37,161 bases of DNA from Candidatus Methanoperedens sp. (lineage in GTDB: Archaea > Halobacteriota > Methanosarcinia > Methanosarcinales > Methanoperedenaceae). The position numbers and the translations under genes are program-made. Under the pieces are notes generated by a model. That model was not told the origin of the DNA, made no database searches, and worked only from the letters and a program-made list of their open reading frames with translations. The stretch lies in NCBI GenBank assembly GCA_026552855.1, contig JAPMTX010000155.1, positions 1 to 37,161 of the forward strand, read 5' to 3'. This document shows, one piece after another, positions 15,741 through 19,992 of this stretch (positions are counted from its first letter, which is position 1; the number at the start of each line of letters is the position of its first letter).

Positions 15741-16028
15741 TTACTTCACCACTTCAACCTTCTTTATCTTGGGTACCTTTTCTTTCAATTTCGTCTCAAG
15801 TACCGCAACAATAGTACTTGCAGGTATGCAGCATCTTCCGCAGCTTATCCCCTGCCGGGTCTTATATTCCCTGAGGAACGTGCTGAACGTAACTGGCACT
15901 GTGGTTCCGGTGATCCTCACCCTTACAACCCCATCCTGAGTACCTACAAGTTCAATATCCCCGCCGTCCTCCCTGAGGCTCCTGCGAAAGCCAGCCAGTA
16001 TCTCATTTATTGAATCCTCTCTTCCCAT
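15741..16028 (-). CDS. NifU C-terminal-domain-like protein
   Basis: A 95-residue protein related to the NifU/Nfu C-terminal iron-sulfur scaffold domain: an N-terminal helix with INEILAGFRRSLREDGGDIELV, a beta strand DGVVRVRITG, then a cysteine motif ISCGRCCIPASTIVAVLE followed by LKEKVPKIKKVEVV. The CxxC needed for cluster binding is present with an extra adjacent Cys. Compared with ordinary Nfu domains there is an insert (TTVPVTFSTFLREYKTRQG) before the cysteines. It starts at ATG 16028, 33 bases after the ABC ATPase stop, so it is probably the last gene of the importer operon. It could be cluster delivery or a divergent relative. Confidence 0.72.
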   Translation of the reverse strand: MGREDSINEILAGFRRSLREDGGDIELVGTQDGVVRVRITGTTVPVTFSTFLREYKTRQGISCGRCCIPASTIVAVLETKLKEKVPKIKKVEVVK

Positions 16029-16061: not shown

Positions 16062-16820
16062 TCAGTACTTGCCCGCCGCCCTTTTTATCTCCGCTCCCAG
16101 CGACCTGAGTACCGAATCGCGAAGCAGGTTCGCTTCCAGGCTCGTCCTCACCCTGGGGCGGGGCAGGTTGTTCTCGAAGATCTCCTTCACCGTGCCCGGG
16201 CGTGCTGACATCACAACCACCCTGTCAGAGAGGTATACAGCCTCATCCACGCTGTGCGTGACGAAGAGAGCGCTTATGTGCTCTTTCTCCCAGATGCGCA
16301 GAAGCTCAGCCTGCATCAGGTTCCTTGTCTGCGCATCAAGCGCGCCGAAAGGTTCATCCATCAGCAGGAGCTTGGGGTGATTGGCATACGCTCTCGCTAT
16401 CCCGACCCTTTGCTTCATCCCGCCTGAGAGTTCGAGGGGGTAATGGTCCTCAAACCCCCGCAAGCCCACAAGGTCGATGTAATGCTGCGATATCCGCTCG
16501 CGTTCCTCTTTCGGCAGTCCTTTTACTTCAGGTCCGAACTCTATATTCTCCCGCACCGTCCTCCAGGGGAAAAGCACGTACTCCTGGAATACGAAGCCGC
16601 ATTCCTTATTCACGCCTTCAATCCGTTTCCCGTCCAGGAAAAGCTCGCCCTCTGTAGGCGTATCCAGTCCTGCTACGAGGCGAAGAAGCGTGGTTTTTCC
16701 GCATCCGCTCGGACCGAGGAGGCATACGAACTCCCCATCTTCAACTTCGAGGTTCACATCCGAGACCGCAATAAAGTTATTGAATCTCCTGGAAACGCCC
16801 TGCAGCGCTAATCTACCCAT
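16062..16820 (-). CDS. ABC importer ATPase (nitrate/sulfonate/taurine class)
   Basis: A 252-residue ATPase. It has Walker A LLGPSGCGKTTLLRL, Q-loop VFQEYVLFPWRTVREN, signature LSGGMKQRVGIARAY, Walker B LLLMDEPFGALDAQTR and H-loop FVTHSVDEAVYLSDRV. The FGALDAQTR and ARPGTVKE phrases place it with SsuB/TauB/NrtD-like ATPases. It overlaps the permease by 13 bases and shares its operon. The substrate cannot be read from the ATPase. Confidence 0.92.
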   Translation of the reverse strand: MGRLALQGVSRRFNNFIAVSDVNLEVEDGEFVCLLGPSGCGKTTLLRLVAGLDTPTEGELFLDGKRIEGVNKECGFVFQEYVLFPWRTVRENIEFGPEVKGLPKEERERISQHYIDLVGLRGFEDHYPLELSGGMKQRVGIARAYANHPKLLLMDEPFGALDAQTRNLMQAELLRIWEKEHISALFVTHSVDEAVYLSDRVVVMSARPGTVKEIFENNLPRPRVRTSLEANLLRDSVLRSLGAEIKRAAGKY

Positions 16821-17614
16821 TTTATGAACCTCTTCTGAAGAAGGAGTATACTGATGTTCATGATGTACCCGATGACGCCTATCACTACCATGCCAGCCAC
16901 CATTTCAGCGTAGCGCCCGATATCGCCCATGTTCCATATGAAATACCCAAGTCCTACCGGGCTCCGGATAACCATCTCAGCAGCGACTATTGCCATCCAG
17001 CCCACGCCCAGACCTATCCGCAAGCCAGCGACTATGGAAGGAAGAGCAGATGGGATGACCACCTTCGTCACTATGTTCGATTGAGAGGCGCCAAGCGTCT
17101 TTGCAGCATCGATCAGCCGCACATCTGTAGATTTTACCCCGTATATGGTGTTCAGGATAATGGGAAATACCATGCCGATGAACACAATAAAAATCGAGCC
17201 CCCGCTGACAAGAATAAATATAGCCAGCGGTATCCATGCCATCGGCGGCATGTTCCTTACGATCTCGATTATGGGATTGAGGATGTTGTATATGAGCTTT
17301 GAGTATCCTATCCCTATGCCTACAGGAACGCCTACGATGAATGCTATGATACCGCCCTGGATAACGCGCCCCAGGCTGGCCTGCACATGGTCAGAAATCC
17401 CGTACGTGATCACAGGACCGTGAGCCTGCGAGAACAGAGAACCTGAGAACGCATACCAGGTCTCAGGCGGGGTGGGAATATCCTTCAGCCGCATGAAGGG
17501 GACGTTGAAAGTACCGTCCCTTGCAAACATCACCAGGGCATACCACAGCAGTACAAAACCGATAAGGGAGAGGACGTTAATGATCAGTCCATTTCTCCCT
17601 GCCCCGTTTTTCAT
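16808..17614 (-). CDS. ABC importer permease (SsuC/TauC class)
   Basis: A 268-residue inner-membrane permease with an N-terminal helix (about 11-30), a hydrophilic segment (31-75) and about five further helices. The cytoplasmic EAA loop is DAAKTLGASQSNIVTKVVIPSALPSIVAGLRIGLG, typical of binding-protein-dependent permeases of this class. The ATG at 17614 shares its A with the stop of the binding-protein gene (TAATG), so the two are translationally coupled. Confidence 0.92.
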   Translation of the reverse strand: MKNGAGRNGLIINVLSLIGFVLLWYALVMFARDGTFNVPFMRLKDIPTPPETWYAFSGSLFSQAHGPVITYGISDHVQASLGRVIQGGIIAFIVGVPVGIGIGYSKLIYNILNPIIEIVRNMPPMAWIPLAIFILVSGGSIFIVFIGMVFPIILNTIYGVKSTDVRLIDAAKTLGASQSNIVTKVVIPSALPSIVAGLRIGLGVGWMAIVAAEMVIRSPVGLGYFIWNMGDIGRYAEMVAGMVVIGVIGYIMNISILLLQKRFIKWVD

Positions 17615-18714
17615 TAAGAGACGACCTTAACTCCTTCCTTATCAGCAGCCATCAGGAAAAGCACATGCTGTATCGTACCCGGTCCTGGGTATCCCACGGT
17701 CTTTCCTCTCAGGTCTTTCAGTGAGGTTATGTTACTCGCTACAACTATCACCGAGCCCTCATCATTCATGCCTGCTATAACCCCCACGCGCGCATCATCG
17801 ACCGTGAAATCGTTGCTGTTTATCCTGTGAATGATCACAGGAGGGATGCCAAGGCTTCCCACATCCACAGTGCCGGCTTTGAAGCCATTCTGCATCTCAA
17901 ACGCTCCGTTCTGGAACGGCGCTCCTTCTGCAAGGGTGATATTTATCCCTACATCCTTGTACCAGCCCTTTTTCCACGCCACGAAGAACGGCAGTTCATG
18001 TATATCATTGATAAGGTAGCCGTAGCGGACGGTTACAGGTTCTTTCAGCGACAGGCTGCTTAGACTGGCATCTTTGTTCTGCACAGCCCATTCAACATAC
18101 TGGTTGGTTATCAGTGAATTCGCATAATCGGATGCATTCTTATACCCTGACTGGTTCCACTTTGCAGGGTCAAATATCCCGAAGTCCTGTATCTTATTGA
18201 TAAAGGTCGCAGTTCCCGGAACATCAGTAGTGTATACGAACTCGACATCAGAAAGGCTCATATTAGCCGCGTTCCGGTCAGTGAGACCGCCGAAATCCAT
18301 TGTATAGTTGATCAATTCTTCATGGTCGGGTGAACCCGGGCTCTTTGCTTTATTAATATAATCCACCGATCTAAGCTGCATAAGAGCCATGCGTTTGAGT
18401 ATCTCATCAGAGTTTTTTGTATTCTTATGCCAGTTATAATTGTATGCGACCACACAGCAGGGATGCTCTTTCCATATATCGCCTGAGTATAGCAGGGGTT
18501 TCCCGTACCCTTTAGTGACGGCTAATGACGGGTAGGGTTCCCACATTATGAACCCGGCGATCTCGCCGGTTGCAAGCCTCTGCACCATGTCCTGTCCGCT
18601 CATCTTTACGAGGTTGACAGGCTCCGAGGTCTCAGGGGGTTTATTACTTTCAAGGCATCCGGCTATCAATATGCTCAAACCGATAATGATAAGGATTTTT
18701 AATGAAGCTCTCAT
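17614..18714 (-). CDS. ABC importer binding lipoprotein, circularly permuted
   Basis: A 366-residue lipoprotein (lipobox LIAGC, Cys20) of the NMT1/SsuA-like class. Residues 33-214 (VNLVKMSGQDMVQRLATGEI, then FIMWEPYPSLAV) are what normally forms the second half of such proteins. Residues 225-366 (VTVRYGYLINDIHELPFFVA, then KAGTVDVGSLGIPPVI, LKDLRGKTVGYPGPGTIQHV, ending DKEGVKVVS) are what normally forms the first half. The normal order would join GVKV at the end to VNLVKMSG at the front. The signal peptide, the uninterrupted frame and the one-base overlap with the permease all argue for a functional gene. A tandem-duplication-then-truncation origin is likely. The ligand is unknown. Confidence 0.88.
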   Translation of the reverse strand: MRASLKILIIIGLSILIAGCLESNKPPETSEPVNLVKMSGQDMVQRLATGEIAGFIMWEPYPSLAVTKGYGKPLLYSGDIWKEHPCCVVAYNYNWHKNTKNSDEILKRMALMQLRSVDYINKAKSPGSPDHEELINYTMDFGGLTDRNAANMSLSDVEFVYTTDVPGTATFINKIQDFGIFDPAKWNQSGYKNASDYANSLITNQYVEWAVQNKDASLSSLSLKEPVTVRYGYLINDIHELPFFVAWKKGWYKDVGINITLAEGAPFQNGAFEMQNGFKAGTVDVGSLGIPPVIIHRINSNDFTVDDARVGVIAGMNDEGSVIVVASNITSLKDLRGKTVGYPGPGTIQHVLFLMAADKEGVKVVS

Positions 18715-18725
18715 GGTTTCCCTCT

Positions 18726-18743
18726 ATAATAATTAATTATTAT
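18726..18743. promoter_or_regulatory. Perfect 18-bp palindrome before the importer operon
   Basis: ATAATAATTAATTATTAT is an exact palindrome 12 bases upstream of the binding-protein ATG and within the divergent region shared with the HTH regulator gene. It may be the regulator's operator, or simply AT-rich leader; the symmetry is exact but the sequence is low complexity. Confidence 0.4.
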
Positions 18744-18847
18744 CATCTCTAAGCCAGCGTATTTAACAGTTTCCATATTTGCTTCCGTAATAACCCAAAT
18801 GTATTAATAAACCATTCTATATATACAATCGTGATAATAGGACAGCA

Positions 18848-19366
18848 ATGACGGCAGACGATCTTATAAAAGCGGCGGCAGAATCCGATGAAGCCTTTAT
18901 CAAGGAGTTCGGAAGGATAATCAGGGAAGAACTGCGCATGACAGCAGCGGAGTTCAGCGAGAGCTCAGGCATTCCTCCGAGCACGGTTTACAAGTTGTTA
19001 TCAGGGCACAGGGAGCCCAATATCAAGACGCTCCGGCAGATAGTAAGGATGCTTCGCAAAATGGAAGGCACTGAAAAAGTTGATTTTATTGCGGTCATTG
19101 CAGCCCGCCCTGTGCTTGATTACATCACCGAGAAAAAACTGAAAGTGGGTGGGCGGCTCCTGACTATAAGGGAATACTCAGCCACATCGATGGAGGAAGC
19201 TATCATCGCCGCGATCAGGGCTGAGAGGGACGGCGCCAAGGCTGTGGTCTGCGCGCCCATAGTGAGCACCACGGTCGAGAAGGTGCTGCGCATCCCTGTT
19301 GCCATTATCATGCCCAGGGACAGCCTTATGGAAGCCATAGAGCTTGCAGCAAGGAAAATGGGTTAA
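18848..19366 (+). CDS. HTH regulator with PrpR-N-like sensor domain
   Basis: A 172-residue DNA-binding protein. Residues 25-75 form a Cro/XRE-type helix-turn-helix (LRMTAAEFSESSGIPPSTVY, KLLSGHREPNIKTLRQIV). Residues 80-172 (VIAARPVLDYITEKK, then MEEAIIAAIRAERDGAKAVV, IPVAIIMPRDSLMEAIELA) resemble part of the PrpR N-terminal sensor fold. It diverges from the ABC importer operon and may regulate it. It overlaps the next gene by one base, so it heads the operon with the cysteine-cluster protein. Family placement of the sensor part is tentative. Confidence 0.75.
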   Translation: MTADDLIKAAAESDEAFIKEFGRIIREELRMTAAEFSESSGIPPSTVYKLLSGHREPNIKTLRQIVRMLRKMEGTEKVDFIAVIAARPVLDYITEKKLKVGGRLLTIREYSATSMEEAIIAAIRAERDGAKAVVCAPIVSTTVEKVLRIPVAIIMPRDSLMEAIELAARKMG

Positions 19367-19992
19367 TGGTAATGGAGAGAAAAGAGAGGGAGATAGCCCG
19401 GTTGGAAGAAGCCCTGGAAGAGGCTGCCGGGATAGATGAAGGGAAGCTTGCCGCTGAAATAAAAGCCATCGGGTTTAAGTGCCAAAAGTGCGCAGAGTGC
19501 TGCAAAACAGAATACGGGGATAATACCGTAACCGTTTTTCCTTTTGAGATAGAGCGCATACGTGAAACAACAGGGCTGAACAAAGAAGAGATAGTAACAC
19601 CGATGCCTTCTGAGGATACCGACCCTGAAGGGAATATACATACCTTTGAATGGGTGCTGCGGAAAAACGAGGACTGCATTTTTCTCAGGATCGGCTTATG
19701 CAGAATATACGGGTGCAGACCGCGTATATGCAGGACGTATCCTTTTTATCTGCTGGAAGGGCGCCTCGGGGTCTCAGAATGCAGGGGACTTGGAGGCGAG
19801 ATAAGTTATGAAGAGAGTATGGGGATTGCGGCACTGCTGAAAGAGAGGTACATAGCTGAAATCAAAGAATCCATTTCACTTCTTGAAAGGTTCAATGGGT
19901 TTAAACCCGGGAGCGGGGGCAATATATGCGTACACGATAGCGAGGGCGAGCACTGGGTTGATATAGAATTACAAGATACAGGCAAGATTTAA
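19366..19992 (+). CDS. YkgJ-type cysteine-cluster protein
   Basis: A 208-residue protein of the YkgJ/CxxCxxCC family (possible iron-sulfur or zinc site). The conserved cysteines appear as FKCQKCAECCKTEYGD, then CIFLRIGLCRIYGCRPRICRTYPF, then SECRGLG. An N-terminal charged helix (1-35) precedes the cluster. Translation starts at ATG 19366, overlapping the regulator stop, or at ATG 19372 two codons later. Function in this family is unknown; the context with an HTH regulator offers no substrate. Confidence 0.82.
   Translation: MVMERKEREIARLEEALEEAAGIDEGKLAAEIKAIGFKCQKCAECCKTEYGDNTVTVFPFEIERIRETTGLNKEEIVTPMPSEDTDPEGNIHTFEWVLRKNEDCIFLRIGLCRIYGCRPRICRTYPFYLLEGRLGVSECRGLGGEISYEESMGIAALLKERYIAEIKESISLLERFNGFKPGSGGNICVHDSEGEHWVDIELQDTGKI

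Follow-up and report, generated by a model that had tools for sequence, protein, structure and literature searches.

Importers of the NitT/TauT/SsuA class transport small anions, sulfonates and precursors. Their substrate-binding proteins (SBPs) of the NMT1/SsuA/TauA/NrtA type (PF13379, PF09084, TIGR01728) are presumably type II proteins of cluster F. Few ABC binding proteins with a natural circular permutation seem to have been published: in the literature covered here, with subscription journals largely outside it, one clear case was found, the binding lipoprotein TpMglB-2 (Tp0684) of Treponema pallidum (PMC4990184). TpMglB-2 is reported to hold its ligand in the interlobe cleft and to alter its shape when the ligand binds; the authors propose the designation 'Type Ic / Cluster Bc' and discuss anchoring as a reason. 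Among the matches listed from the same literature, there was no report of a naturally permuted SBP of the NMT1/SsuA type or from an archaeon. SBPs also act outside transport, and sensor kinases activated by them are known, as in LuxP-LuxQ, TorT-TorS and XylFII-LytS (PMC6321045).

The SBP described here is encoded in a stretch of 37,161 nucleotides, henceforth the window, from Candidatus Methanoperedens sp. (assembly GCA_026552855.1, contig JAPMTX010000155.1). Its frame of 366 codons is open from ATG to TAA on the minus strand (17614-18714) and begins with a lipoprotein signal peptide of 20 residues (18655-18714, minus strand), the last of which is the cysteine of the lipobox LIAGC. The TAA stop shares a single base, 17614, with the ATG of a permease gene of the BPD_transp_1 family (16808-17614, minus strand), which is followed by an ABC ATPase gene (16062-16820, minus strand). 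The protein thus has the export signal and tether of NMT1/SsuA-type SBPs as well as the linked permease and ATPase of their operons. A regulator of the HTH_3 family is encoded divergently (18848-19366, plus strand), separated from the SBP gene by positions 18715-18847; in a homologue of this regulator (L129), a PrpR_N match stayed below the cut-off (21.7 versus 29.1 bits). Next to the regulator lies a YkgJ-like gene (19366-19992). Downstream of the ATPase, a small protein of 95 residues with a NifU-like domain (15741-16028, minus strand; Pfam, 49.6 bits) had no match in the five loci compared from neighbouring genomes.

Domain models place the two halves of this SBP in reversed order. Pfam NMT1_2 aligns with its positions 151-228 to residues 30-106, whereas NMT1 aligns with its positions 5-117 to residues 241-362, and NCBIfam SsuA_fam with its positions 1-128 to residues 229-363. 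Residues 30-222 (18049-18627, minus strand) are therefore the canonical second half, from profile position 133 onward, ending in the alignment with an extra linker between the two former termini, and residues 228-363 (17626-18033, minus strand) are the canonical first half (profile positions 1-131). Because the second half comes first, and not in the canonical order of NMT1/SsuA-type SBPs, we class the protein as a circularly permuted derivative rather than as a plain member of NMT1_2 (PF13379), despite its score above the gathering cut-off (75.6 versus 24.7 bits). SsuA_fam (TIGR01728) gives it 76.4 bits in two stretches, below the curated cut-off of 163.5 bits, compared with 172.5 bits for a canonical relative of the same genus (L065), which is matched over the whole protein in one stretch and in normal order. 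Such low scores of permuted SBPs arise because each half matches the family models apart. At E values up to 1, the only Pfam matches were NMT1_2, NMT1 and Phosphonate-bd. Membership in SaoX (NCBIfam NF040735) was rejected at 47.9 versus 300 bits; the likeness is a half match, with model positions 125-219 at residues 27-121.

A profile was built from 16 canonical archaeal proteins encoded at 15 loci. Its positions 1-131 align with residues 228-363 of the window SBP (68.5 bits) and its positions 133-256 with residues 30-164 (63.1 bits); when the sequence is rotated, the two pieces merge into a single alignment that scores 144.9 bits and in which one profile position separates them at the old cut. 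With both halves far above noise and reversed, and with all 25 A-type loci from other genomes (L006-L030) showing the same order, a chance arrangement is excluded. Rotation raised the score in all 78 permuted proteins examined, which had been preselected as permuted by half-profiles, so that the comparison tests the join and not how often the order occurs. Median scores rose from 63.1 to 134.9 bits in group A, to which the window SBP belongs (n=21), from 70.8 to 150.6 bits in group B (n=23), from 67.3 to 132.3 bits in group C (n=13) and from 91.7 to 187.5 bits in group D (n=21). Over these 78 proteins, the N-terminal piece begins at canonical position 119-144 (median 133; 132-133 in groups A, B and D, 139 in group C) and the C-terminal piece stops at position 122-135 (median 131; group medians 124-132, with 124 in group A). 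In the alignment, after the canonical C-terminal sequence (LFDLTFVNEL in L163), the permuted proteins have some 15-20 extra residues before the canonical first strand (TVRYGYL) begins. As these residues bridge the two old ends, almost nothing has been lost, and the W-E-P and HPCC motifs are common to the window SBP and its canonical archaeal relatives. The first-pass annotation of this DNA, made from the letters alone, had proposed an SsuA/NMT1-type lipoprotein with swapped halves, an intact frame, a lipobox and a stop overlapping the permease start of an ABC operon, and had suggested aligning the rotated protein with its relatives; the results above bear this out, including the near-seamless join that it foresaw between the C-terminal GVKV and the N-proximal VNLVKMSG.

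It is highly probable that the window SBP, taken as a whole, is the lipoprotein of a NitT/TauT/SsuA-class importer that descends from a circularly permuted ancestor and works as a normal bilobed binding protein. The chain would begin in the canonical second half, continue past the old C-terminus, reach the old N-terminus by way of a short new linker and end where it began, and the two lobes would still assemble into a ligand-closing protein. Going by homology and by what is established for type II SBPs, we take the cut to lie in lobe 2, between the helix that follows the GKTVGYPG strand and the next strand. The lipid tether, attached at the start of lobe 1 in the canonical arrangement, would thereby sit on a surface loop of lobe 2, leaving the cleft unchanged, and the system is expected to import its substrate. 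An AlphaFold2 model of the window SBP, computed from an alignment of only 21 close relatives (the protein itself and those of 20 related loci), reached a mean pLDDT of 44.9 and a pTM of 0.47. When solved structures were searched by sequence, no chain had a best stretch spanning both halves, and TpMglB-2 was not among the 17 solved sequences matched at E values up to 1. Like TpMglB-2, the window SBP is a natural permutant lipoprotein whose gene is clustered with permease and ATPase genes and which has relatives in several organisms. TpMglB-2, however, is bacterial, with a type I (sugar) fold of cluster B and a fourth lobe crossover; by sequence and Pfam, the archaeal window SBP does not derive from that fold but from an NMT1/SsuA-type parent, with clear homology in both halves.

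The reversed order is conserved. In a search of 60 related genomes, group A orthologues of 64-92% identity were found in 22 of 30 genomes of the same genus and in all three genomes from elsewhere in the family, and the 20 named records matching by sequence come from Candidatus Methanoperedens and relatives. Every A-type locus examined (L001, L006-L030, L035-L054) is permuted; neither a permuted nor a canonical version was found in five of the 30 same-genus genomes. What the first-pass annotation had treated as an isolated oddity is thus shared by all orthologues examined, and permuted relatives make up two or more large groups in archaea. That homologues might all have this order proved true of the orthologues but not of the wider family, in which the order is canonical, same-genus relatives included. 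Since the orthologues are permuted while the wider family is canonical, the permutation is, judged from the comparison of genes, inherited and old rather than a sequencing error. The lipobox pattern occurs in 21 of 21 group A, 20 of 21 group D and 12 of 13 group C proteins, the exceptions being one group D protein with CLGC instead (L132) and one group C protein without a CLGC-like motif (L156). In the stretches fetched, a permease gene was present downstream of the SBP in 17 of 21 group A, 20 of 21 group D and 12 of 13 group C cases. No second copy of either half scoring above 7.6 bits, as a tandem-duplication intermediate might leave, was seen in the fetched loci, a weak search with at most three matches listed per frame. 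The A1 profile also found stretches interrupted by a stop codon and matching only in part, at G017:C43:123113-123502, G004:C12:38748-39053 and G016:C19:36516-36725; these are possibly remnants of permuted SBPs.

Three same-genus genomes without a group A gene (G007, G012 and G016) carry a canonical SBP together with a permease and an ATPase (loci L065, L064 and L066). The first-pass annotation had suggested looking for unpermuted orthologues in related genomes; the A orthologues themselves are all permuted, and these canonical operons occur instead of them. The window ATPase is 78-82% identical to those of the three canonical operons and the window regulator 83-89% identical to those at L065 and L066 (no regulator was found in L064), whereas the permeases share 41-47% and the SBPs 34-35% identity, the latter over 93-108 residues. 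At the DNA level, blastn against L065 and L066 detected 74-79% similarity at about 16072-16787, in the ATPase gene, and at about 18758-19362, from within the divergent intergenic region (starting at 18758-18760) through the regulator, with nothing between; L064 was similar at the ATPase only. Within one genus, a permuted SBP and its permease are thus flanked by a regulator and an ATPase that also occur in operons with a canonical SBP and another permease. The YkgJ-like gene beyond the regulator was found in permuted loci L035 and L037, but none was found in L064-L066; what is shared is therefore limited to the operon and its regulator.

The trees of the two subunits conflict. The window permease, with the other group A permeases, joins permuted group D (support 100/99), and a grouping of A with the congeneric canonical operons is rejected (AU, P = 1.9e-5); the ATPase of group A joins the congeneric canonical operons (100/99.8), and a grouping of A with D is rejected (AU, P = 0.03), the groups for these tests having been named after the trees were seen. 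The simplest reading is that the flanks were kept while SBP and permease were exchanged together between them, the permuted SBP bringing its own permease; the two thus look like a pair that can be exchanged as one. As the window regulator is closer to regulators of canonical loci (64-68% identity to four of them, 47-57% to four others) than to those of groups D and C (38-54%), it was probably the permuted pair that came in.

Related permuted proteins extend well beyond the family. In a survey of 237 genomes of the class, most of the surveyed genomes being drafts, a profile of groups A and B matched in 35 at E values up to 1e-20; 34 of these have permuted proteins, and the only match in the other, G012, is in canonical order. 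In a sample of 392 genomes from the phylum, full-length matches in one piece (E up to 1e-40) were found in at least 29 genomes, at least 25 of them outside the family, with one partial match besides; these counts are lower bounds, up to five candidates per genome having been scored. Groups A, B or D are present in families f1, f2, f6, f10, f16, f18, f31, f33 and f35, and Pfam confirms the reversed order in four group D proteins, one group B protein and the protein of G060.

Group C is a third and more distant permuted group, with proteins of about 400-420 residues. It was first spotted by N-terminal matches and then checked with half-profiles in fetched loci; its own profile matched in 27 of 246 genomes. 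Its members occur in families f11, f17, f20, f26, f27 and f28 (in f11 and f28 by one-piece match only). In three group C proteins, Pfam places the NMT1_2 second half close to the N-terminus (residues 25-142); the first half of group C proteins was identified with a half-profile and the canonical profile, and its score is only 10.2 and 10.9 bits in two of the group C rows. Group C (L149-L162) has extra residues within the first-half segment (around SRPDVADLIVNGQ in L149) that are absent from the alignments of groups A, B and D. One divergent member (L156:4150-5337) has a hydrophobic N-terminus without a lipobox, as in group B, yet is followed by permease and ATPase genes.

Further observations concern the surroundings of permuted loci and other replicons. 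At one locus (L133:3950-4828, genome G361), a canonical-order NMT1_2 protein of 292 residues (Pfam, 35 bits), with no evident signal peptide, is encoded about 60 bases upstream of a permuted SBP on the same strand. At four permuted group D loci of family f10 (L137-L139, L141), the gene next to the SBP operon on its upstream side belongs to one and the same cluster; the scanned representative (L137) is MtrH-like, a hint, for the organisms of f10 only, at methylated compounds as substrate. With the window SBP as query, tblastn against plasmids matched 53 records, in none of which a single place covered 80% of the query. A group D query matched 157 records, 20 of them with at least 80% coverage (18 from Pseudosulfitobacter and one each from Methylocystis and Marinobacter); among the matches listed, 60 of 60 were in two pieces, and the five records opened out of the 157 (Pseudosulfitobacter, Methylocystis, Marinobacter, Klebsiella and Thermomicrobium roseum) all had canonical order. 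In viral contigs, 29 stretches fit a pattern in a search with the A1 profile, none of which encodes a relative.

Group B differs from the others in its genomic context. A member is encoded in the genome of the window itself (L055) and is likewise permuted, with 32% identity to the window SBP. Of 23 group B genes, 22 lie directly behind a gene homologous to part of a dCache-HAMP sensor kinase, the exception being L082; 14 overlap the kinase gene, 11 of them by exactly four bases, and in the one kinase that was scanned Pfam identified a dCache-HAMP-HisKA-HATPase architecture. No ABC permease or ATPase gene was found downstream of any of the 23. Farther upstream, many are accompanied by genes for a small winged-helix-like protein and for a receiver protein bearing an HTH of the AsnC type. 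All 23 proteins have a strongly hydrophobic N-terminus and none has the lipobox pattern, two of them having a cysteine in this segment, namely L086 and L085, where it lies in YAGC, possibly an unusual lipobox; in most, about 10 residues separate the hydrophobic stretch from the first strand. Group B apparently no longer takes part in transport and, by analogy, may form a binding-protein-coupled sensor. With its gene directly behind that of a dCache kinase, it is a functional candidate for comparison with LuxP-LuxQ, TorT-TorS and XylFII-LytS (PMC6321045), from which it differs in being archaeal and of a permuted NMT1/SsuA type with its own short membrane anchor. At another locus (L063:1453-2379, G013:C226), a group B protein is fused in frame behind a kinase-like HAMP segment without a kinase core, and the other SBP half lies in a separate frame, as would result from a deletion accompanied by decay or from misassembly.

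How often the permutation arose was addressed with trees. Trees of rotated SBP sequences place groups A, B and D in one group and group C in another, with canonical sequences between them. The first was built from 82 of 102 rows and the second from 65 of those; loci left out as repeats of genes held elsewhere were L002, L004, L006-L034 and L095-L127, which include the permuted loci L028-L030 from other genera of the family. L062 was kept although it contains an N, and L063, L067 and L091, which lack one half, are outside the 102 rows. Operon trees comprised 53 operons, and 49 in the joint test of permease and ATPase; subunit trees comprised 53 sequences per subunit and later 28 permeases and 27 ATPases. 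The best trees require two changes of order, and in the joint permease and ATPase tree it costs 11.9 log units to bring all permuted rows together (AU, P = 0.052). Both results are in line with two origins at about the same site, one for A, B and D and one for C. The SBP data, on the other hand, do not reject a single origin of all permuted rows (AU, P = 0.354), the cut sites of the groups are near each other, there are long branches, and the joint test mixes two histories, since those of permease and ATPase differ. On balance, we regard a twofold origin as possible but lean away from it.

A bolder proposal would give the permutation itself a function. A tether on lobe 2 might alter docking, each permuted SBP would need a matching partner, and the same cut would have been made twice, independently, in archaea. 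The partner of group A would then be its own permease, exchanged jointly with the SBP between the kept regulator and the kept ATPase, and that of group B would be the dCache sensor kinase, with which the SBP makes contact by means of its very short membrane anchor. We consider this proposal unlikely in its full form.

A domain-swapped dimer, in which a neighbouring chain supplies the segment that completes each lobe, so that the unit is dimeric rather than a permuted monomer, is quite improbable. Swapped elements have been described in circularly permuted constructs of ribose-binding protein (PMC10601554), and the bridge between the old termini of the window SBP is only about 15-20 residues long in the alignment; the cleft binding and shape change reported for the natural permutant TpMglB-2 (PMC4990184) nevertheless speak against such a dimer. 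Judged from the fold geometry, the linker also looks long enough for the neighbouring old termini in lobe 1. Still less probable is that the window SBP serves as a signalling receptor instead of a transporter subunit, as its group B relatives behind sensor kinases, one of them in the same genome, might lead one to expect: in group A the permease start lies over the SBP stop, an ATPase and a lipobox are present, and the permease tree tracks SBP type. Finally, the window genome is a draft of 211 contigs with an estimated contamination of 6.49%, but a sequencing, binning or assembly error, including the rearrangement inside 17614-18714 that the first-pass annotation had allowed for, or a decaying gene can be set aside with near certainty, as the same order recurs in independent genomes of several families with frames open nearly throughout.

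The reading of the window SBP as a bilobed importer lipoprotein with swapped halves adds to TpMglB-2 a second natural case of a permuted ABC binding protein, in the NMT1/SsuA kind, with homology clear enough to locate the cut and with relatives in many archaeal families. Group B suggests that the permuted scaffold has found a second use, serving a two-component system as its membrane-anchored receptor. The genus of the window, moreover, holds a natural experiment, in which a closely similar regulator and ATPase are combined in some genomes with a permuted SBP and its permease and in others with a canonical set, and this makes the role of tether position and lobe order in permease docking testable.
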